Shown in pieces: positions 16,815 through 33,710 of a stretch of 64,000 nucleotides of DNA. Where the stretch lies: NCBI GenBank assembly GCA_036322835.1, contig AP027304.1:1178001-1242000 (forward strand), given 5' to 3'. The first letter of the stretch is position 1, and every line of letters begins with the position of its first letter. The notes below the pieces were generated by a model. That model searched no databases. It saw only the letters and a list, made by a program, of their open reading frames with translations, and had not been told where the DNA came from. Position numbers and translations under genes: made by a program. Source of the DNA: Tenuifilaceae bacterium CYCD (GTDB lineage Bacteria > Bacteroidota > Bacteroidia > Bacteroidales > Tenuifilaceae).

Positions 16815-17963
16815 CTATTTTTTTGGTAAAACTATTCTAAAAGCAGTTCCCTTATTTATTTCCGATGATTTTATAAAGATTTTACCATTATGGTACTCCT
16901 CCACAATTCTTTTAGATAGGGTTAATCCAAGTCCCCAACCTCTGGATTTTGTAGTGTAACCAGGTCGGAAAACATCCTTAAACTTTGATTTTGGAATACC
17001 TCGGCCAGTATCAACAATATCAATGAAAACAACCTGAGTATTATCTATTATATTGAAGGTAAGCGTTCCAACACCGTTCATAGCATCCACGCTATTTTTT
17101 ACAATATTTTCGATAACCCACTCCATAAGTGTAATATTCAGCGGAACGTTTATGGCCTCTTTAATAGCGTACTCCTTTTGGAAAGCAACATTCTTAGATA
17201 CCCTTGTTTGTAAATATTCAACTGATTTGTCGATCATTTCAACTAGGTTATTCTTGTTCAAACTAGGAGCGGAGCCAATTTTTGAGAACCTATCGGTTAT
17301 AACCTCTAAGCGATGAATATCCTTTTCCAGTTCATTTAAAACTAAATCGTTGGGCGAATTTTCCCTAAGCATTGTTAAACAAGCCATTAACGATGATGTT
17401 GGGGTTCCAAGTTGATGCGCTGTTTCCTTTGCCATACCAACCCAGATACCGTTGCGCTCAGCCTTGCGTGATTGACTAAAGGCGTAGTAAGAAATCACTA
17501 CAAAAAGAATGATTATTAGTAGTTGAATATAAGGGTAGTACGATAACTTTTTTAAAGTAGTACTATCCGTATAGTAAACGTAATTTTTTACATCGTGAAG
17601 TAGGTTAATTTCAATAGGCTCGTGCTCCGCTCTCATTCTTTCAATTAGCCTTGCTGTTGATATTGAATCCTTAAACTGCTCTTTGTCAATATTTCTGTAC
17701 GATAGAACATTTCCCTCTTCGTCAGTCAGAAGAACAGGCACCGTGCTATTATTTTGGATAACCTCAAAAACAAAAGTGAAATCCTTTTCGTTATCGGTAA
17801 GGTTAATTAGTTCTCTTATACCAGCAACCCACAAATCAATTTTTTTCTTTTCCTCAAACGAGAGTTGACGTACAAACCTGTTTGTAATAACAATTGTTGA
17901 AAGGCCAATAAAACCAGCAAGAATCAACAGTATAAAGTTTGTTTTTACCCTAGTAAACACCAT
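16815..17963 (-). CDS. Membrane-bound sensor histidine kinase
   Basis: A 382-aa kinase with two transmembrane helices (about 8-28 and 143-162) that enclose a periplasmic sensor region of about 115 residues, then a cytoplasmic kinase core. The H-box is atypical, AKETAHQLGTPTSSL, a form frequent in Bacteroidota kinases. The ATPase shows the N-box (ENIVKNSVDAM), G1 (DTGRGIP) and G2 (GWGLGLTLSKR). No response regulator gene is adjacent, so it is an orphan kinase. It starts 11 bases after the AsmA-like gene and is probably co-transcribed with it, which hints at an envelope-related signal. Confidence 0.88.
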   Translation of the reverse strand: MVFTRVKTNFILLILAGFIGLSTIVITNRFVRQLSFEEKKKIDLWVAGIRELINLTDNEKDFTFVFEVIQNNSTVPVLLTDEEGNVLSYRNIDKEQFKDSISTARLIERMRAEHEPIEINLLHDVKNYVYYTDSTTLKKLSYYPYIQLLIIILFVVISYYAFSQSRKAERNGIWVGMAKETAHQLGTPTSSLMACLTMLRENSPNDLVLNELEKDIHRLEVITDRFSKIGSAPSLNKNNLVEMIDKSVEYLQTRVSKNVAFQKEYAIKEAINVPLNITLMEWVIENIVKNSVDAMNGVGTLTFNIIDNTQVVFIDIVDTGRGIPKSKFKDVFRPGYTTKSRGWGLGLTLSKRIVEEYHNGKIFIKSSEINKGTAFRIVLPKK

Positions 17964-17974
17964 AATTCAAAAAT

Positions 17975-20419
17975 CTAATTATTATCAACGTTAAGAGTGT
18001 CGTACTCGTCCCACTCTATGTTGAATTTTGTTTTATTTTGTAAAGAACTGTCTTTCTCTGGATTCTTTGAAGTATCCTTTTTCACTATCGTTTTGTACTC
18101 ATCCTTTAACATTTCTTTAATTGTATTCCCCTCTGTATTAAGATTGCCCTTGATTTTTTCGAACGATGATTTTTTATCTAAACTGACATTGTAATCATTG
18201 CTGTCCCCTATAAGTTTTAGGTATAGGTTTATTGCACCATTACTTGTATTTTCAGTATCGTCAATTGACGACGAATTTAAAAACCTTCTGGATAACACTT
18301 GGCTGAAGTTAATCTTCATCCAGTATGTATAATTTCCCGCAAAATAATGCTCCCCAGAAAGTTCCATGTTGATTACGTTCGAAAAAACATCCATTCTTGG
18401 AATACGAACGCATTGATCGGATATTTCAATCCTATTATGAAGTGTTTTAAAATCGATAGATTTAACCTGATCCAATTTTAACCATTTTGATAGCTTATCA
18501 ATTTTATTCATTCCCATAAGTTTTCCATCGCTGATTGTAACGTCCGTTTCCATTTTTATTGAAGGCATTACTATTTGGCCGCCATTATCAGTAATAAAAT
18601 TTAGAATAACAGATCCCGAGAGATTCCCACTTAAATTATTACCGGTAATATAACTCTGTTTAAAATTATCGTAATGGTTAAATAATTTTGAAATACTCAT
18701 GCCGTTAAAATCGGTTGAAATAAAATATTTATTATCAATATTTTTCATCGATCCACTTAGCATGCCATCAAAACCATTACCCGAAAAGTTTTTGATTTCG
18801 AATATATTATCGGAATACTGCATTTTACAGTTAACGCTTTTAAAGTTGTAGTCCATAAACTGTAAATTCTTAGAATCAACTGTTATCGTATAGGTATCAT
18901 TTACTTTAGAAGAGTCTTTAGATTCCGGCAATTTTGCAATATATTCAGTAAAATAATCAACATTAATTGATTCGGCCTTGATTTTAATTTCGGGGTTTAA
19001 ATTATAATTATCGTTCAACAGATTTATTATGTTATCCTGATTGATGGTTATACTGAAAGGCATGTTGTCAAATTTACCAGATGATACAATTGATACATTT
19101 TTGTCAAAGGTAATTTTTCCTGAAATATCGTTGATTCGATCAATTCCCATTAAATTTCCGATGCTAAAATCAGCGGAACCTTTAATGTTTTGATAAGTTA
19201 GCCTGAAATCATCATTGCTCGTATTAATTCTACCCAAGACCTTTATATTTCCCAACGAGTTTATTGCTCCAGAGATATTGGCAATATTAAACTTCGAGTT
19301 GTTGAGTTTGATTAAACCTTCTGCTAAAACTATAGGATTATTTATGCCTTTAACTCTAGCTGAAAAAATTGCACTCATCTCATTAAATTCGATATCTGCT
19401 TTGCTAATCGTTGAGTTATGAGACGAGAAGTTATCGAAAAGCTGTGTTTTGACAGAAAGATCATTTATTTTTACTTTGTGATTATTGAGGCTTAATATTC
19501 CTTTCGTTTTATGATTTATTGTAAGTTCATGGAGGATGCCAGTATTTATATTGTAATCAACAGATCCAGAAACATTTGATCGTCCTTCTACTCTAAAGTT
19601 ATTGGTTTTAACGGGGAGCAATTCTATTAAATTATTGGTGGCAAAATTATTACTGGAGAATCTTAGCAAAATTTTGCCATTTTCGATATTATAACCCCCA
19701 GAGGCTAGTATCTTGATATTGTTACAATTTATTTCAAGACCATTAATATTACAGATATTATCCGTTTTGCTTATATACAAATCAATTTTAAAGGGATGTT
19801 CAAACTCAAACTCGCCTGCCTCAATTTTTTTATAACTACTTTTAATAGATGTAATCAATTTATTATTTTTAAAATCAATAGATATAAGAGATTTATCTAT
19901 TGATAATTTCGTTGATAGTTTATTTTTAATATCATAAATATTTATATCATAGTTATTTAAACGAAACTTATTGATAGATATATTTTGGGGATTATTGGTA
20001 TTGCGCTCCTGACACGAATACTCATTTATCAAAGAGTCCACTATTTTAGGATAATAATTTGCTGTTCCGGATTCTACAATACAGTTTCGTAAATTAAACT
20101 TACCTTGTATAAGATTTATAGAATTCACTGTTAAACTTAAAGATCGAGCGGAAAGGATGTTTGTTGATAATTCACTTTTAGGAAGATTAATCGATAAATT
20201 ATCGAAAGTTAGAGCAACAAAAGGAAAGTGGCTAAAAAGATTGATATTGAAATCGGAATAGTTTATGTCTAGTTTAACGTCCTTTTCAACAATGGAAAGA
20301 AAATTTTCTGCTATTTTTTTTTGATTAAAGGCGATGTATATTCCCGTTGAAACAATTGTCACTATTAATAGAGCAATTATTAATGCAAGAAATTTCAGAA
20401 AATAGCGAATAAGTTTCAT
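17975..20419 (-). CDS. AsmA-like outer-membrane/envelope biogenesis protein
   Basis: A large (814-aa from ATG) protein with one N-terminal transmembrane helix (about 7-30) and a long, beta-rich periplasmic body of repeated short strands, low in Cys and His. The opening after the helix (YSDFNINLFSHFPFVALTFDNLSI) and the C-terminal segment with NVINMELSGEHYFAGNYTYW are typical of the AsmA/YhdP family, proposed to bridge the periplasm and carry phospholipid to the outer membrane. An in-frame GTG three codons upstream is an alternative start. It heads a unit with the histidine kinase. Confidence 0.8.
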   Translation of the reverse strand: MKLIRYFLKFLALIIALLIVTIVSTGIYIAFNQKKIAENFLSIVEKDVKLDINYSDFNINLFSHFPFVALTFDNLSINLPKSELSTNILSARSLSLTVNSINLIQGKFNLRNCIVESGTANYYPKIVDSLINEYSCQERNTNNPQNISINKFRLNNYDINIYDIKNKLSTKLSIDKSLISIDFKNNKLITSIKSSYKKIEAGEFEFEHPFKIDLYISKTDNICNINGLEINCNNIKILASGGYNIENGKILLRFSSNNFATNNLIELLPVKTNNFRVEGRSNVSGSVDYNINTGILHELTINHKTKGILSLNNHKVKINDLSVKTQLFDNFSSHNSTISKADIEFNEMSAIFSARVKGINNPIVLAEGLIKLNNSKFNIANISGAINSLGNIKVLGRINTSNDDFRLTYQNIKGSADFSIGNLMGIDRINDISGKITFDKNVSIVSSGKFDNMPFSITINQDNIINLLNDNYNLNPEIKIKAESINVDYFTEYIAKLPESKDSSKVNDTYTITVDSKNLQFMDYNFKSVNCKMQYSDNIFEIKNFSGNGFDGMLSGSMKNIDNKYFISTDFNGMSISKLFNHYDNFKQSYITGNNLSGNLSGSVILNFITDNGGQIVMPSIKMETDVTISDGKLMGMNKIDKLSKWLKLDQVKSIDFKTLHNRIEISDQCVRIPRMDVFSNVINMELSGEHYFAGNYTYWMKINFSQVLSRRFLNSSSIDDTENTSNGAINLYLKLIGDSNDYNVSLDKKSSFEKIKGNLNTEGNTIKEMLKDEYKTIVKKDTSKNPEKDSSLQNKTKFNIEWDEYDTLNVDNN

Positions 20420-20444
20420 TTTTTTCACAAAAAGATTTAAATCG

Positions 20445-20569: not shown

Positions 20570-22792
20570 ATGATAAAAAATCGAAAGGTATTTCTTCTCA
20601 TACTTTCTTTTATTTCGGTATTGGGAACTGTGCGATCTCAAAAAGTAGATTCATTACTTTTCCAGTTATATCAAGAGCCCAACGACAGCGCTAGAGTAGA
20701 AATCCTTTTCAAAATATCGAATTACTATGATCAAGTAGAGGGTAATTTTGTTTTGACCGAAAATTATTTGCTCGAAAGTAAAAAACTATGTGAGAGCATC
20801 AATAATCAATATTTAAAAACGCAAGTATATAATAAGTTGGGTATTTTTTATAGAAATCAATCAAAGTATAATGAAGCCCTACGATACCACAATGAAACTT
20901 ATTCGTTAGCAAAGGAAGCTGGCAATTTAAAAATGCAGGTAACTTCTTTGAATAATCTTGGGGTTGTCTACAGACGAATAGACAATCATGCCTTTGCCAC
21001 TGAGTACCACATAAAAGCACTTCAACTTGCCGAGCAAATTAAGGATAGTTTTAATGTTTCTGTTGCTTGCAATAGCTTGGGCAATATTTTTTCGTTAAAC
21101 GGTAGGTACGATGAGGCTATCGACTATTTTACCAGAGCTCTTGGTATCTCCGAAAAAATGAACAATAGTCTTGGTCAGGCTATGAACAATAATAATATTG
21201 GAGAAGTATATGAGTTCAAGGGCAACTATGCAAAGGCAAGAGAGTTTTATCAAAAGTCATTGGATATAAATATTACGATAAACAACTTAAAGGGAATAGG
21301 AATTAGCTATAATGCACTGGGAAAGATTGATTTGTATACGGGTAATTATACCTCTGCTTATGAATACTTTTTAAAAGCATTAGATATCGACCTAAAAATA
21401 GGTGATAAGAAATTCATCGCCGATAGTTATGTGAACTTATCAAAAGTTTTATTGGCCATGAACCGTTTAGACGAGGCTCAAAAGAATATAAGTTTAAGCA
21501 TATCCGTTGCAAAAGAAATAAAGAGTTTAACCCATCAGCAATGGTCCTATGAAGCCTATAGCAATTACTACAGTAAAAAAGGAAGATACGACTCTGCATT
21601 ACATTACTATATTCTTGCATCTAATTTTAAGGATAGCGTTTTGAATGAAAAAAATACTCGACACATATCTACCATCCAAACAATTTATGAAACTGAGAAA
21701 AAGGAAAACGAAATTAAACTTTTAACCCAATCGCAAGAATTGAGGCAAAAAGAGTTAAAGCGACAAAATATTCTTAAAAATGGTTTGCTAATAGGATTGT
21801 TTTTTACAATTATTATAATCATATCGATATATCAAGCATTTATTACTAAGCGAAATAGCAATCGGTTATTGTCCAGACAAATCGAGGAAATAGAAAAACA
21901 AAATATTGTTCTGGAGGAGCAAAAACAAGAAATTCAGATTCAAAAGGAAGAGATTGAACATAATAAAGATTTTATAGAGCAAAAGAATAAAAACTTAGAG
22001 GAGGCCTATAAAATCATTGAAGGATATATCGAAAAAATTACCGATAGCATAAGGTATGCCGAACGAATTCAGGAATCAATTCAGCCAGGCTGTGATATTA
22101 TCAAGGAAATTTTCAGCGATACTCTAATATACAATAAACCTAAAGATATTGTTAGTGGAGACTTCTACTGGATGGTCAATTCTGGAAAGAAGGTTTACAT
22201 TGCACTTGCTGATTGTACCGGACATGGTGTTCCTGGCGCATTCATGAGTATCATTGGTATCGATTTGTTAAATCAAGCGGTGAATTTGCATCATTTTTAC
22301 AAGCCCGATCAAATAGTATCCTTTTTAAATGAAGAACTAATGAAAAGGCTTCGAAAATCTGAAATGGAGCAAGTGCTTAAGGATAGCATGGACATTGCCG
22401 TTTGCATTTTTGATAGGGAAACATACAAACTTGATTATACAGGAGCCCTAATTCCTCTTTTCATCCAGTCCAATGGCGTTCTCAATGAAATTAAACCGGA
22501 CTACATTACTCTTGGAACTTCCTTCGAAAAGGAAACCAAAGTGTTTACCATTAATTCCTTTAAATTAATAGCAGGTGATTGGATTTATCTTGCAACCGAT
22601 GGGTACTTCGATCAACTTGGAGGGCCTCAAAATAAAAAGTTTATGCGAAGCAGATTCCGCGAAACTATTTCTCGGGTTAACCATCTTCCGGGTAATGAGC
22701 AACGCGAAATGATAGAAAAAGAATTTTTGCAGTGGATGGGAAAAAACGAGCAAATTGATGATGTCCTGGTTTGGGGGATAAAAATTAAATAA
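20570..22792 (+). CDS. TPR sensor with cytoplasmic PP2C/SpoIIE-type phosphatase
   Basis: A 740-aa protein built as: signal peptide or signal anchor (about 1-23); about seven tetratricopeptide repeats (about 80-360, with the recurring LGNIF...A...Y pattern every 40 residues); a transmembrane helix (about 403-425); a coiled coil (about 428-485); and a SpoIIE/PP2C serine-threonine phosphatase (about 500-740). Metal-ligand segments are visible: VSGDFYW (Asp531), ALADCTGHGVPGAFMS (Asp548) and LATDGYFDQ. So a periplasmic repeat domain probably controls a cytoplasmic phosphatase, as in partner-switching systems. It is followed 8 bases later by the ankyrin-phosphatase gene. Confidence 0.88.
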   Translation: MIKNRKVFLLILSFISVLGTVRSQKVDSLLFQLYQEPNDSARVEILFKISNYYDQVEGNFVLTENYLLESKKLCESINNQYLKTQVYNKLGIFYRNQSKYNEALRYHNETYSLAKEAGNLKMQVTSLNNLGVVYRRIDNHAFATEYHIKALQLAEQIKDSFNVSVACNSLGNIFSLNGRYDEAIDYFTRALGISEKMNNSLGQAMNNNNIGEVYEFKGNYAKAREFYQKSLDINITINNLKGIGISYNALGKIDLYTGNYTSAYEYFLKALDIDLKIGDKKFIADSYVNLSKVLLAMNRLDEAQKNISLSISVAKEIKSLTHQQWSYEAYSNYYSKKGRYDSALHYYILASNFKDSVLNEKNTRHISTIQTIYETEKKENEIKLLTQSQELRQKELKRQNILKNGLLIGLFFTIIIIISIYQAFITKRNSNRLLSRQIEEIEKQNIVLEEQKQEIQIQKEEIEHNKDFIEQKNKNLEEAYKIIEGYIEKITDSIRYAERIQESIQPGCDIIKEIFSDTLIYNKPKDIVSGDFYWMVNSGKKVYIALADCTGHGVPGAFMSIIGIDLLNQAVNLHHFYKPDQIVSFLNEELMKRLRKSEMEQVLKDSMDIAVCIFDRETYKLDYTGALIPLFIQSNGVLNEIKPDYITLGTSFEKETKVFTINSFKLIAGDWIYLATDGYFDQLGGPQNKKFMRSRFRETISRVNHLPGNEQREMIEKEFLQWMGKNEQIDDVLVWGIKIK

Positions 22793-22800
22793 ACTACAAA

Positions 22801-24429
22801 GTGAATAGAAAATTAATAGTATTTATTTCTTTTTTTATAATTCTCAATCATTCTTTTAGATCAGGTTTTGCTCAAGATGATTTGATTCGCGATAGTGCAA
22901 TTATAAACAACATAAGAGCGAACAACATAAATGCTTTAAATAGTTATGTAGATCGATATGGCCCAGATTTTAGGTTCTTAGATGGAGAACAAACGATATT
23001 ATCCTATGCAATAATCAAAAACAACGTTACCGTTGTTCTGTACATTCTAAATAAAGGAGCAGATATTAATTTAATCCATAGTAATACAAGCCCTTTAATG
23101 CTTTGTGCTATTCACGACAGATCCAACATCGCATCATCACTGATTAAATTTGGAGCGAAAGTCGATCTTTATAACAAGCACAGGAACACGGCTTTACTAT
23201 ATGCATCTAGGTATGGAAATATCAACACTGTAAAAGTTCTGACCCAGCAAAGAGCAAACCCCTTTTTTAAAAATTTTATAGGGTATAATAGTTTGGATTA
23301 TGCACGGGAGAATCATAAGGATGATGTGGTGGAATACTTGAAAACATACATGGTGCGTTATGCCAAGGGGGCATTTCCATCAACCTACGATGGTCCACAT
23401 GTAGATTGGATCGGACTAAAAAGATTAAAGGCCTATTATATAATTAATGACAGCACATCTGGAAAGATTTACAAGAAAAGTAAAATTTTTAGAATTAAAG
23501 ATTCTCTTGTTATTACAGGCATATATCCATTGGATACTTTAGATCATATAATTTATAAGCCAGAAAATAAGCGTAATAACAACGATACATTTAACAATGT
23601 AGAAAAAATTTTTGCAATTGGTGATGTTCATGGATCCTATGATAGTTTATTAAAGGTGCTGATTAATAATGAAATTATTGATCATGATCAAAATTGGACT
23701 TTTGGAAATGGACACGTTGTTTTCATTGGAGATCTTTTTGATAGGGGTGATAAAGTAACCGAAGTACTATGGTTAGCATACAGGCTCTGGAACCAAGCAC
23801 CAAAATATCACGGAAAAGTTCATTTACTTTTGGGTAACCATGAATTATTGATTCTGAATAAGGATTATCGGTATGTCAACGAAAAGTACACGTACTTGAC
23901 CAGAGGAAAAAATATTGAATATGCCGATCTATTCTCTACAAATACACTATTGGGCGATTTTGTTCGAAGTTTTAGTGCTGCTATAAAAATTGATAATATA
24001 TTATTTGTACATGCTGGTTTGACTTATTTTATTGTCAATAAATCTATTTCTATTACTGAATTAAACAGATCGGTTTATCAAATTTTGAATAGAAAAGATA
24101 ATGATTTGATTTCAGAAAGAACCATTTCAATTTTTACAGATGCTTTTTCTGATAAAGGAATTTTTTGGTATAGAGGATATTTGGCAGAAAGCCCTATCGT
24201 GTCGAAGGCAAGCCAGGATGAGTTAAATAGTGTACTAAATTATTATGCAGTAAAGACAATGGTTGTGGGGCATACTGAAGTTAATAGGATAGATGCTCTT
24301 TATAATGGCGGCTTAATCCCGGTTAATGTTCCTTTTGACAGAGTCGGGATTCCTAAGCAGGCTCTTTTAATTGTAAATGGAAAATATTTTAGATGTAACT
24401 CTGATGGATCAAAAGAATTGATAATGTGA
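22801..24429 (+). CDS. Exported ankyrin-repeat plus PPP-family metallophosphatase
   Basis: A 542-aa protein with a cleavable signal peptide (about 1-24, ending GFAQ), about four ankyrin-type repeats (about 35-185) and a C-terminal calcineurin-like phosphoesterase (about 268-535). The phosphatase has the full PPP signature: GDVHG (274-278), GDLFDRG (310-316), GNHE (345-348), then VHAGL and VVGHTEV. PPP enzymes remove phosphate from serine/threonine or cleave diadenosine polyphosphates. Here export places it in the periplasm, away from the usual cytoplasmic substrates. Translation starts at GTG. It is 8 bases after the PP2C gene and 28 bases before the CotH-like gene. The substrate is unknown. 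Confidence 0.82.
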   Translation: MNRKLIVFISFFIILNHSFRSGFAQDDLIRDSAIINNIRANNINALNSYVDRYGPDFRFLDGEQTILSYAIIKNNVTVVLYILNKGADINLIHSNTSPLMLCAIHDRSNIASSLIKFGAKVDLYNKHRNTALLYASRYGNINTVKVLTQQRANPFFKNFIGYNSLDYARENHKDDVVEYLKTYMVRYAKGAFPSTYDGPHVDWIGLKRLKAYYIINDSTSGKIYKKSKIFRIKDSLVITGIYPLDTLDHIIYKPENKRNNNDTFNNVEKIFAIGDVHGSYDSLLKVLINNEIIDHDQNWTFGNGHVVFIGDLFDRGDKVTEVLWLAYRLWNQAPKYHGKVHLLLGNHELLILNKDYRYVNEKYTYLTRGKNIEYADLFSTNTLLGDFVRSFSAAIKIDNILFVHAGLTYFIVNKSISITELNRSVYQILNRKDNDLISERTISIFTDAFSDKGIFWYRGYLAESPIVSKASQDELNSVLNYYAVKTMVVGHTEVNRIDALYNGGLIPVNVPFDRVGIPKQALLIVNGKYFRCNSDGSKELIM

Positions 24430-24457
24430 GGTTATTATACATTAACATGGTAATGTT

Positions 24458-25486
24458 TTGTTAATTCGAAGAATTATATTATTTATATTAACATACCTTT
24501 TTATCAGTGATTTAAAGGCACAAGAAAATTTTTTTGATTCTAATGAAATTGTTACAATTGATATAGTAACAGATCTTAGAGCCCTCTTTAGAGACATCAA
24601 CCCCGAAACGGCTAAGTACCATCCTGGTTTTATTTCGTATATAGATAATAATGGTAACTCTATAACGATCAACGTAAAATTAAAAACTAGAGGAATATTT
24701 CGGCGAAGCCGGGAGAATTGTAATCTGCCCCCTTTAACTATTAAATTTAATGATGAAAGTCTTGATAGTTCTATTTTCATGAACCAAGATAAACTGAAAT
24801 TGGTAAATGCATGTTACAGAAAACGAGACATCTATAAGCAATATGTTATAAAAGAGTATTTGGCCTATCGCATTTACAATGTTTTAACCGATTACAGTTT
24901 TAGGGTGAGAATGGTGAAGATAGTTTATGTTGATATTAATAATTCGATACATCCATTCGAATCCTTTGGCTTTCTTATTGAAGATATTAATACTCTGAAT
25001 TCTAGAACTAACACGAAGCACTTAAAAACACTTGGAATTATTCAAGATGCAACTGATAGAAAAATGATAGACATTGCTACAGTTTATCAGTATTTAATTG
25101 GAAATACAGATTGGTCTGTACTTAAGCAACATAACATAAAATTGGTTGTTAATGATTCTTGTTTAATTCCGATTGCTATTCCTTATGATTTCGATTTTTG
25201 TGGATTTGTTAATCCTCCTTACACTAAACCGCCAGAAATTATTCCTATTAAACATGTAACAGACCGTTATTATAGGGGATTTTGCCGTACTAGAGAGGAA
25301 TTAGCACCCACTTTTCAGTTTTTTATTGATAAGCAGACGGAAATTTATAGTTTAATAATTGATGATACTCTCTTAACACCACAAAACAGAAAGGCTGCTT
25401 TAAAATACATTGATGAGTTTTACAAAGTAATTAAAGATCATAAGTTAGTACAACGAGAGTTTATCGATAATTGTCGCTCTGAATAA
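24458..25486 (+). CDS. Exported CotH-like (kinase-fold) protein
   Basis: A 342-aa protein with a signal peptide (about 1-22, ending LKAQ). I recognise it as a Bacteroidota family resembling spore-coat protein CotH, an atypical secreted protein kinase. Supporting pieces are LKTRG near 76-79 and the lysines of DKLKLV (111-116), which may be the nucleotide lysine region, a catalytic-loop-like GNTDWS with HN (215-226), and a YDFDFCG segment (243-249) in the place of the kinase metal-binding DFG. Kinase activity is inference. The start is TTG: the same frame has a stop 15 bases upstream and no ATG. It ends directly against the rhomboid start. Confidence 0.6.
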   Translation: MLIRRIILFILTYLFISDLKAQENFFDSNEIVTIDIVTDLRALFRDINPETAKYHPGFISYIDNNGNSITINVKLKTRGIFRRSRENCNLPPLTIKFNDESLDSSIFMNQDKLKLVNACYRKRDIYKQYVIKEYLAYRIYNVLTDYSFRVRMVKIVYVDINNSIHPFESFGFLIEDINTLNSRTNTKHLKTLGIIQDATDRKMIDIATVYQYLIGNTDWSVLKQHNIKLVVNDSCLIPIAIPYDFDFCGFVNPPYTKPPEIIPIKHVTDRYYRGFCRTREELAPTFQFFIDKQTEIYSLIIDDTLLTPQNRKAALKYIDEFYKVIKDHKLVQREFIDNCRSE

Positions 25487-26161
25487 ATGGAAAAAGAATC
25501 ATATAACGAAATGCTTAGATTTAAGTATAGTTTACTGCCTCCAATTTTTTTTCTTGTTCTGATTTGGGCAGTAAAGGTTGTGGAAATCTCTAACAATACC
25601 AGTTTTCATGAATTAGGCGTTTATCCCCGAAGGATAGAAGGATTATGGGGAGTTGTATTTGCTATATTTATTCATTCCGACTTTAATCACTTGTTGTCTA
25701 ACTCAATATCTCTTGTAATTCTTTTTAGCGGGCTAATTTACTTTTACCGGGATCTTTCATATAAAGTAATTCTATTTATTTGGATAACGAGTGGCATCAT
25801 GGTTTGGCTTGGTGCTCGCGAGAGTTATCATATTGGGGCTAGTGGTCTCATATACGGAATTGCTTCGTTCCTTTTTTTTAGCGGAATCATTCGCAAGGAC
25901 GTTAGGCTAATGTCAATATCCATGCTAGTCGTTTTCTTGTATGGAGGATTAATATGGGGTGTTTTCCCAATTTTCCCTCGAATTTCTTGGGAATATCATC
26001 TTTTTGGAAGCATATGCGGATTAATCGCAGCCTATTTTTACAGAAAACAGGGTCCCGAAAAGAAAAAGTGGAGTTGGGAATATGAAGAAGAAGGCACTGA
26101 TATAGAATCTCATGATGAATATTCCGAGGAACTGATGAATGAAAACTCACAAAAGTTTTGA
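25487..26161 (+). CDS. Rhomboid-family intramembrane serine protease
   Basis: A 224-aa protein with about six transmembrane helices. It has the rhomboid features HSDFNHLLSN (63-72), the catalytic serine in GASG (Ser119) with YGIASF after it, and the catalytic His in the last helix (WEYHLFGSICG, His171). The C-terminal 35 residues are acidic and cytoplasmic or periplasmic. Rhomboids cut transmembrane segments of client proteins. The ATG follows the CotH-like stop codon without any gap, so the two are coupled. Client proteins are unknown; the single-span PP2C sensor in the same unit is an obvious candidate to test. Confidence 0.92.
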   Translation: MEKESYNEMLRFKYSLLPPIFFLVLIWAVKVVEISNNTSFHELGVYPRRIEGLWGVVFAIFIHSDFNHLLSNSISLVILFSGLIYFYRDLSYKVILFIWITSGIMVWLGARESYHIGASGLIYGIASFLFFSGIIRKDVRLMSISMLVVFLYGGLIWGVFPIFPRISWEYHLFGSICGLIAAYFYRKQGPEKKKWSWEYEEEGTDIESHDEYSEELMNENSQKF

Positions 26162-26226: not shown

Positions 26227-26616
26227 ATGGCAAAAATTAACGAGAATGAACTTTCCACCAACAACATTAACCTTGTTGGTCTAGGAACAGAAATTAATGG
26301 TGATGTCAATAGCAATGGCGATTTAAGAATTGATGGAACATTAATTGGAAATCTTACCGTTAAGGGAAAAGTTGTAGTAGGTGAAACTGGAAAAATTAAG
26401 GGCGAAATCTTCTGCAAGAATTCGGATATCTCCGGAATAATTGAAGGTAAGGTTACTGTTACTGAATTGCTTTCAATTAAATCGACTGCAAAAATTTCGG
26501 GAGATTTACATGTTGGCAAACTTGCCATTGAGCCAGGTTCAAAATTCACAGGTTATTGCGATATGGGAAGTTCTGAACAAACCGCTATTGTTGATTCTTC
26601 CTCTTCGCTCAAATAG
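26227..26616 (+). CDS. Bactofilin-family polymer-forming protein
   Basis: A 129-aa protein consisting of a short flexible N-terminus, a right-handed beta-helix core of glycine- and valine-rich rungs (about 18-112: GDVNSNGDLRIDGTLIGNL, GKVVVGETGKIKGEI, and so on) and a short Ser-rich tail. This is the bactofilin (PF04519) fold, which polymerises without nucleotide into membrane-associated filaments with roles in shape and localisation. In Bacteroidota a bactofilin gene is often placed directly ahead of the ATP synthase genes. It has its own promoter and probably leads the atp operon. Confidence 0.93.
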   Translation: MAKINENELSTNNINLVGLGTEINGDVNSNGDLRIDGTLIGNLTVKGKVVVGETGKIKGEIFCKNSDISGIIEGKVTVTELLSIKSTAKISGDLHVGKLAIEPGSKFTGYCDMGSSEQTAIVDSSSSLK

Positions 26617-31982: not shown

Positions 31983-33710
31983 TCATTTCGGAAGATAGCC
32001 TTTGGCTTTAACTGGTTTCTCAATCTCTGCAATGGCTTCCGAAACGTTTATGATATAATCTCCCATCTTTTCACAATCATTGAATAAATCGCTATAAATA
32101 ACACCTGCTTGATATTTATATTTATTTGCTTCAACATTCTTAATATGATCTTCCTTCAGCAATTCTCTTAATTTATTAACTCTTTCTTCCGCGTCGTAGG
32201 CTGGCCCCATGTTGATATTCGGATTTTTTTGACCTTGCTCAAGGTTTTGAATCATAGTTAAAAGTGCTTCATCAAGCAGTTCAAACATCTTGTTCATGTT
32301 GTTTCTTATCTCTTGGCTGAACCAGATTTTCGAATCTCGTTTTCTTTTCATTGTTCGAGCCAAAGCGTAGTTGCTATCAGCAACCGATTCTATTTCACTA
32401 ATAATTCGGAACATTGCTTGAAGTTTCTTGGAACTTTCATCTCCAAGTTCATAAGTAGAAACCTTGTTTAGATAGGTAGCAATTTCTACTTCAACCCTAT
32501 CGCTGATTCCTTCATATTTTTCTATGCGTTCATATATAGAATCAAATTCCTTATCGTTGGTTTCATTGAAGAGTTGCTTTACAAAACCAAACATTTTTGA
32601 GGTTCTTTTGGCAAAAATTATTACTTCCTTGTGTGCTTGCACCAAAGATAGTTCAGCCGTTGAAAGCAATCCAATATTGATATGTACCAATCTGAACTCT
32701 TCCTCTTCTTCTTTTTTAGTTGGCACCATCCATGTAACTATTTTTACAATTAGTGGGATGAACCATATAAGTAACGTAGTATTTATAAAATTAAAACTTG
32801 TATGGAAAATACTTAACGCAACAGGAATGCTTGCCGGATTTTCAAACGGAGAACTTCCTGTATTGTGTACCATAATCTTGGCAATTAAATTAGTAAATGG
32901 ATAAAACAGCAACAGCATCCATGTAACGCCAAGCATATTGAAAATAAAATGTGCTCTTGCTGCCCTTTTTGCCGATACATTTCCTATTAACGCAGCAATG
33001 TTTGCAGTTACCGTTGTTCCAATATTTTCACCAAGAACCATTGCCGCTCCCAGTTCGAATGAAATCCAACCCTGGTTACACATAACAAGCGTAAGAGCCA
33101 TGGTTGCGCTGGAGGATTGTATTATTAGTGTTAGCAGCGTACCAATAAGCAAGAATAGCAATACCGATGGAAAACCCATACTGGCATATCTTGCCAAAAA
33201 CTCAAACATTCCGGGATTCTGATCAATTCTCGGAACTGAATTTTTCAGATATTCTAGTCCTAAGAAAAGTAGAGAAAAACCAACAATAAACTCACCCCAT
33301 GATTTTATTGATGATTTTTTAGAAAACATTAAAGGAAAGCCAATACCAATTAACGGGATAGCAATTAAAGCAATGCTAAAATTAAAACCGAGCAGCGATA
33401 TTATCCACGCAGTAACGGTGGTTCCGATATTGGCTCCCATTATTACTCCAATTGATTGAACCAGCGAAAGAAGTCCTGCATTAACAAAACTTACCACCAT
33501 AACGGTGGTTGCTGATGACGATTGGATAATTGTTGTTACCAACAACCCGACTGCAACTCCCATAAACTTGTTGGAGGTTATGGAGGCCAAGATGGATCGC
33601 ATCTTGTCGCCTGCTACTTTTTGTAATGATTCGCTCATTAGTTTCATTCCGTACAGGAATAATCCTAACGATCCGATTAGATTTAAAAATTCGAGTAGGC
33701 CGTAATTCAT
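31983..33710 (-). CDS. Na+/phosphate cotransporter family protein with PhoU-like domain
   Basis: A 575-aa protein. The N-terminal half (about 1-320) holds about eight to nine transmembrane helices in two inverted repeats, each with the NptA/SLC34 hallmark QSSSAT (about residues 63-68 and 199-204). The C-terminal part (about 340-560) is a helical PhoU-like domain. Family members import phosphate with sodium; some family proteins are thought to act in efflux or regulation, so the direction is not settled by sequence. It is a single-gene unit facing the atp operon. Confidence 0.9.
   Translation of the reverse strand: MNYGLLEFLNLIGSLGLFLYGMKLMSESLQKVAGDKMRSILASITSNKFMGVAVGLLVTTIIQSSSATTVMVVSFVNAGLLSLVQSIGVIMGANIGTTVTAWIISLLGFNFSIALIAIPLIGIGFPLMFSKKSSIKSWGEFIVGFSLLFLGLEYLKNSVPRIDQNPGMFEFLARYASMGFPSVLLFLLIGTLLTLIIQSSSATMALTLVMCNQGWISFELGAAMVLGENIGTTVTANIAALIGNVSAKRAARAHFIFNMLGVTWMLLLFYPFTNLIAKIMVHNTGSSPFENPASIPVALSIFHTSFNFINTTLLIWFIPLIVKIVTWMVPTKKEEEEEFRLVHINIGLLSTAELSLVQAHKEVIIFAKRTSKMFGFVKQLFNETNDKEFDSIYERIEKYEGISDRVEVEIATYLNKVSTYELGDESSKKLQAMFRIISEIESVADSNYALARTMKRKRDSKIWFSQEIRNNMNKMFELLDEALLTMIQNLEQGQKNPNINMGPAYDAEERVNKLRELLKEDHIKNVEANKYKYQAGVIYSDLFNDCEKMGDYIINVSEAIAEIEKPVKAKGYLPK

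Follow-up and report, generated by a model that had tools for sequence, protein, structure and literature searches.

We examined a stretch of 64,000 nucleotides (positions 1,178,001 to 1,242,000 of contig AP027304.1; hereafter the window) of the Tenuifilaceae bacterium CYCD genome, which is a single contig of 3.92 Mb. Four genes of the plus strand span window positions 20570-26161 and encode, in order, a PP2C sensor phosphatase, a PPP phosphatase, a CotH-like protein and a rhomboid protease. A reading of the sequence alone had taken them for one envelope phospho-signalling system, and the layout it described, with intergenic gaps of 8, 28 and 0 bases, agrees with the coordinates of the open reading frames (ORFs). 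Comparison with other genomes shows that the CotH-like kinase and PPP genes are a recurrent unit and that the four genes do not have equal standing. In the mechanism that we favour, with a probability of roughly 0.55, a CotH-type kinase is exported and phosphorylates a component of the envelope, and an exported PPP enzyme reverses the modification.

A kinase-fold protein beside a Shewanella-type phosphatase

The CotH-like protein has no match to the Pfam CotH family (PF08757), Pfam giving only a chance-level match (0.097), and no NCBIfam family matched it. Its structure was modelled with AlphaFold from an alignment of the window protein and 76 relatives (77 members), with a mean pLDDT of 95.3 and a pTM of 0.91. 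The top matches of this model in a Foldseek search of the PDB were to Bacillus cereus CotH (9.9e-10 and 3.3e-9), followed by Helicobacter pylori CtkA. Alignment with VIA-align gave Z 20.3 for CotH (5jd9; root-mean-square deviation 3.3, 268 residues aligned) and Z 12.5 for the next best structure; CtkA, HipT and HipA lie near Z 12 and phosphatidylinositol kinases (PI-kinases) are among the weaker matches. The kinase fold, at first an impression drawn from motifs, is now backed by the model and by both structural searches.

The CotH model of Pfam is reached by 21 of the 77 members at E ≤ 0.1 (best 1.6e-8). Residues R78, G79, R82, C88, K114, C119, E133, Y137, D218, N226, D244, D246 and F321 are invariant in all 77. 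A Pfam-confirmed CotH protein of the same genome (L001) has identical residues at the positions aligned with D218, N226, D244 and D246. A second CotH protein of this genome (L002) aligned badly, with only D244 and D246 (the DFD-type Asp) coinciding, and K114 and E133 are without counterpart in either. By motif, D218 and D244 correspond to D228 and D251, given as the catalytic aspartates of Bacillus subtilis CotH in PMC7821199; the Asp pair and the Asn are both present. The protein has a hydrophobic N-terminus and no further such stretch, and an N-terminus of this type was found in 77/77 kinases at a lenient setting (all export and transmembrane calls come from a plain hydropathy scan, not a dedicated signal-peptide predictor). 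The invariant C88 and C119 would fit an extracytoplasmic protein. Because of the model match, the relatives recognized by Pfam as CotH and the invariant kinase-type residues, the third protein is likely a catalytically equipped CotH-type kinase. A pseudokinase is disfavoured, the catalytic-type residues being invariant throughout the family.

The PPP protein combines ankyrins with a Metallophos domain (Pfam, 1.6e-15) and carries a hydrophobic N-terminus, its only such stretch. The Shewanella cold-adapted tyrosine phosphatase aligns to its residues 254-541 (5.4e-55), and the best solved-structure matches are PDB 2z72, 2zbm and 1v73 (E 5.4e-55 to 2e-54). The metal motifs GDxHG, GDxxDRG, GNHE, HAG and GHT are all intact. 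Among the PPP proteins examined, GDxHG was found in 24/27, GDxxDRG in 26/27 and GNHE in 27/27, and an N-terminal hydrophobic stretch in 26/26 (lenient setting). These matches place the protein as a Shewanella-type (Shelph/SLP) phosphatase, predicted to be exported. It is without the (I/L/V)D(S/T)G motif reported for bacterial PPP in PMC2887360. This motif occurs in 2 of the 27 PPPs (at residue 417 of 543 and residue 79 of 441), and the Shewanella enzyme likewise has none in the aligned stretch. An ApaH-type nucleotide hydrolase was considered and rejected, the match to the symmetrical ApaH model being weaker (9.4e-10; 38.2/176 bits).

Recurrence of the kinase-PPP pair

The surroundings of CotH-like genes were read in 93 loci, the window locus excluded. 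These are L023-L122 minus the duplicates L057 and L084 and minus L043, L067, L089, L094 and L110, where ORF picking gave no CotH-like ORF. Twenty are stretches from the window's order, from 18 of its 20 kinase-positive genomes (G043, G084 and two further copies in G014 were left out); the other 73 are named loci, a sample that leans to near relatives because it was drawn from the best 80 of 556 confirmed. In 26 of the 93 loci a PPP gene and the CotH-like gene are at most 250 bp apart, on the same strand in 22. L023/L086, L064/L068 and L102/L104 each share an exact 100-mer and were kept; when they are merged, PPP is adjacent in 25/90. For the named loci alone, none of which is a seed of the PPP profile, the corresponding numbers are 15 adjacent and 12 on the same strand. 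These 12 are from Bacteroidota, and the three opposite-strand pairs come from metagenome-assembled genomes (MAGs) labelled Xanthomonadales, Caulobacterales and Proteobacteria.

The two genes also occur in the same genomes. Among 119 genomes of the order, 20 carry the kinase, 17 a full-length PPP (E ≤ 4.9e-84) and 15 both (Fisher test, 4.6e-13; 2.4e-12 without the window's genome). The PPP of G046 is cut by a contig end, and counting this genome gives 16 of 18. Kinase and PPP are neighbours in 11 of the 15 genomes with both. Some circularity enters this co-occurrence, since PPPs found beside CotH-like genes in 11 genomes served as seeds of the PPP profile; without these genomes (n = 108), the kinase is found in 9, PPP in 6 and both in 4 (p = 3.3e-4). 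We regard the reappearance of the pair in unrelated surroundings as strong evidence of joint function.

From the observed genes and their order, the predicted fold, the catalytic-type residues, the co-occurrence and the adjacency, we infer export and activity of the two enzymes and a substrate shared by them. The CotH-like protein would be exported to the periplasm or surface, where it would transfer phosphate to an envelope protein or other envelope molecule, and the exported Shewanella-type PPP enzyme would take that phosphate off. The window's Bacteroidales family carries this pair between a PP2C sensor gene and a rhomboid gene. If these two have a role, that of PP2C would be a separate cytoplasmic output: it probably reads the envelope via its periplasmic TPR half and would act on a cytoplasmic phosphoprotein.

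Several points weigh against such a dedicated couple. The kinase is often unaccompanied by PPP, since 67 of the 93 loci are without PPP within 250 bp, and 64 within 5 kb. In the four non-seed genomes of the order that hold both genes, these are adjacent in none. A search of 296 genomes of the phylum, which scored few candidates per genome, found the kinase in 17, PPP in 4 and both in 2 (p = 0.017, or 0.15 without the window's genome); in these two, the window's genome and G321, kinase and PPP are side by side. All the Fisher tests ignore the kinship of genomes. CotH kinship of the window protein could not be established from sequence alone: as with Pfam and NCBIfam, profile searches of PDB sequences with the CotH-like family gave no match, and hhalign of the family against a two-row alignment of true CotH proteins was not significant. 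Finally, we know of no periplasmic phosphoryl donor.

Alternative readings and neighbouring genes

The kinase-fold protein and PPP may instead serve an envelope or surface polyphosphate (polyP) pathway, in which DUF4956 with VTC or PPK1 makes or moves the polymer; the kinase may use polyP or a polyP product, and PPP may hydrolyse polyP. We consider this unlikely, though by no means far-fetched. DUF4956 genes, identified by Pfam on representatives and elsewhere through BLAST clusters and a local profile, are no more than 250 bp away from the CotH-like gene in 17 of the 93 loci, VTC stands just past DUF4956 in 5, and L027, L047 and L050 hold a same-strand VTC-DUF4956-CotH-PPP cluster. In L056, from the cultured Labilibaculum filiforme, a DUF4956 gene separates the kinase gene from the PPP gene. 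The count is weakened by two matches below the Pfam cut-off of 30.6 (L117, 30.1; L121, 29.4), with a third just above it (L051, 31.0). In the last, a Gemmatimonadota MAG, the gene adjoining the CotH-like gene encodes DUF4956 fused to PPK1 (L051:10960-13776), which links DUF4956 to polyP synthesis. In another Gemmatimonadota MAG the neighbour is a CYTH-PPK1 fusion (L083:3400-6510, by Pfam), not counted among the 17. The source genome has a VTC-DUF4956 pair 1.17 Mb from the window locus, and in Gram-positive Pel loci (PMC7112168) a CotH-type gene accompanies a polyP polymerase and DUF4956, as in many relatives of the window's kinase. The window locus, in contrast, shows neither DUF4956 nor a polyP polymerase and adds a PPP gene; no polyP gene was found among the ORFs scanned there, and the PPP is nearest to a protein tyrosine phosphatase. 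A narrower idea concerns the donor of the favoured kinase: its phosphate could come from polyP that VTC or PPK1, together with DUF4956, makes and carries across the membrane, the exported PPP then resetting the target; we think this improbable.

The VTC-DUF4956 pair of the source genome (L145:8089-9921, near C1:28000) is followed by a small ORF that looks SiaC-like by eye, and a paralogue of the PP2C-TPR protein (31% identity over 671 residues) is encoded about 4 kb upstream.

It also seems doubtful that the kinase-fold protein acts on a glycan, a lipid or another small molecule, with PPP or an NPP-type enzyme removing or recycling the product. CotH has been described alongside Pel polysaccharide genes (PMC7112168). 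Type I phosphodiesterase (NPP) genes lie within 250 bp in 7 of the 93 loci, and PI-kinases figure among the weaker fold matches. On the other side, CotH, the nearest relative of solved structure, is a protein kinase (PMC7821199). HipA, CtkA and Fam20C, also in the fold-match list, are protein kinases too. A fold by itself does not reveal the substrate. Four of the loci (L078, L087, L092 and L097, in MAGs of Chitinophagales and of further Bacteroidota, with Pfam applied to L078 alone) have a CotH-like gene, an NPP-type phosphodiesterase gene and an acyl-CoA-binding protein gene in fixed order.

The sequence-only reading had joined all four genes in one circuit in which the rhomboid would cleave the PP2C sensor, and this we judge very unlikely. 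Its recognition of phosphatases from two families and of a rhomboid stands, by Pfam and motifs. The PP2C protein has TPRs and a SpoIIE domain (2.9e-16) with its acidic motifs, and the rhomboid protein (Rhomboid, 1.2e-15) has the GASG, YHxxGS and HxxxxHxxxN motifs, thus both residues of the Ser-His dyad. The PP2C protein has an N-terminal hydrophobic stretch, one transmembrane segment at 405-421 and a coiled region between this and SpoIIE. Its TPR part is predicted to be periplasmic and its phosphatase part cytoplasmic, across the membrane from PPP, so it should not meet periplasmic substrates.

The order PP2C-PPP-CotH-rhomboid is not limited to this genome or close strains. The kinase is present in 10 of 27 genomes of the window's family, and the order is complete in six (G000, G024, G130, G134, G135 and G138) and partial in G128, G129 and G133, whose contigs break off within the locus, G133 having PP2C past the contig end and a broken kinase frame; G131 (78% complete) has only a kinase of another, paralogous kind. 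Outside the family the order was found in G080. With bactofilin added, it is shared by further genera and by one further family, which is more than chance. We read the order within the family as weak evidence of joint function, because the flanking histidine kinase, AsmA-like and bactofilin genes are kept too, and the compact arrangement shared by nine family genomes and G080 may be mere synteny. A rhomboid gene also comes after PPP in G082, beside AsmA-like and histidine kinase genes and without PP2C and CotH. Between the four genes there is no match to a Bacteroidota-type promoter, though over the whole window the promoter and terminator patterns were no more frequent than chance.

Across the 93 loci, a rhomboid gene accompanies the CotH-like gene in 2, whether the limit is set at 250 bp or at 5 kb. 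A comparable PP2C lies within 5 kb in 3, two in a window-like arrangement and one on the other strand; the wider distance was used because PPP stands between PP2C and the kinase. In 20/20 further genomes of the order (drawn from 90 others with a rhomboid match, some stretches ending at contig ends), the rhomboid is near none of the other genes. Among the loci read, only the kinase-PPP pair recurs widely: of the proposed envelope phospho-signalling, the exported kinase-fold/PPP pair is supported and the single four-gene system is not.

Table 1. Genes of the locus and its flanks, in window coordinates
Feature	Position	Strand	Basis
TPR-TM-SpoIIE/PP2C phosphatase gene	20570..22792	+	Pfam, NCBIfam, hydropathy, motifs
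Ankyrin + PPP phosphatase gene, predicted exported	22801..24429	+	Pfam, PDB matches, motifs
CotH-like kinase-fold gene, predicted exported, TTG start	24458..25486	+	AlphaFold model, Foldseek, VIA, relatives' Pfam CotH matches, invariant residues
Rhomboid intramembrane protease gene	25487..26161	+	Pfam, Ser/His motifs
Bactofilin gene, next downstream, 65 bases after rhomboid	26227..26616	+	Pfam
Histidine kinase gene, divergent, upstream	16815..17963	-	Pfam
Gene for a large, presumably AsmA-like protein, divergent, upstream	17975..20428	-	No Pfam match

Neither the PPP gene (GTG) nor the CotH-like gene starts with ATG. The histidine kinase gene and that of the protein which we take to be AsmA-like are conserved upstream neighbours; bactofilin is conserved in the syntenic loci and is probably not part of the proposed system. 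ATP synthase genes, named by eye, come after it, and beyond them a Na+/phosphate cotransporter with a PhoU domain is encoded at 31983-33710. In L123 a similar-looking cotransporter gene directly follows bactofilin (by eye). G080 and G138, of two families, have a propeller protein between PP2C and PPP (L029:4964-6100, Reg_prop, and L123:10643-11794; mutual identity 26%).

The source genome encodes a second CotH-like paralogue (L023:6994-8022; C1:3341999-3343012). Its neighbours are molybdopterin oxidoreductase genes and a cluster for ABC export (ABC2 x2, ABC_tran x2, HlyD, outer-membrane efflux); SiaC-family genes lie at a distance of about 6 kb, and L024 has the same order. L086, the Bacteroidales MAG SB25 that shares the 100-mer with L023, may be closely related to the window's genome. 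In L030, L046, L049, L054 and L055 the order TauE, CotH-like, response regulator is fixed, with a UvrD helicase gene adjoining in four of the five.

Relation to known systems

The window protein shares the fold of the Bacillus spore-coat kinase CotH (PDB 5jd9, 5jda), with 14-15% identity, and differs from it by the missing Pfam match, a predicted N-terminal export signal, the invariant cysteines and the PPP partner. PMC7821199 states that no late phosphatase is known for the CotH substrates of B. subtilis, and calls the ATP source of CotH in the Bacillus spore coat an unanswered question. Compared with the Shewanella-type PPP, whose catalytic domain and metal motifs it keeps, the window phosphatase has an ankyrin domain in front and a kinase gene beside it. 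The PP2C protein has in common with SiaA (SiaABCD) the SpoIIE phosphatase domain of a membrane sensor; its match to the NCBIfam SiaA model is partial (5.9e-50; 170.5 bits, below the 700-bit cut-off) and begins at residue 431, its N-terminal half carrying TPRs. No description of a CotH-PPP phosphatase pair was found in the titles and abstract openings of the literature searched, outside of which most subscription papers lie. The fold was already known; the partnership with PPP and the distribution of this divergent CotH group are new.

PolyP enzymes are often encoded next to kinases of the wider group, including those of Gemmatimonadota, and if polyP were the donor, this would answer how the kinase works where no ATP exists. 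To our knowledge, little is known of dedicated, reversible phosphorylation beyond the cytoplasm of bacteria. A predicted exported kinase/phosphatase pair, found across Bacteroidota and in three Proteobacteria-labelled MAGs, would offer a direct way to test extracytoplasmic phosphorylation.

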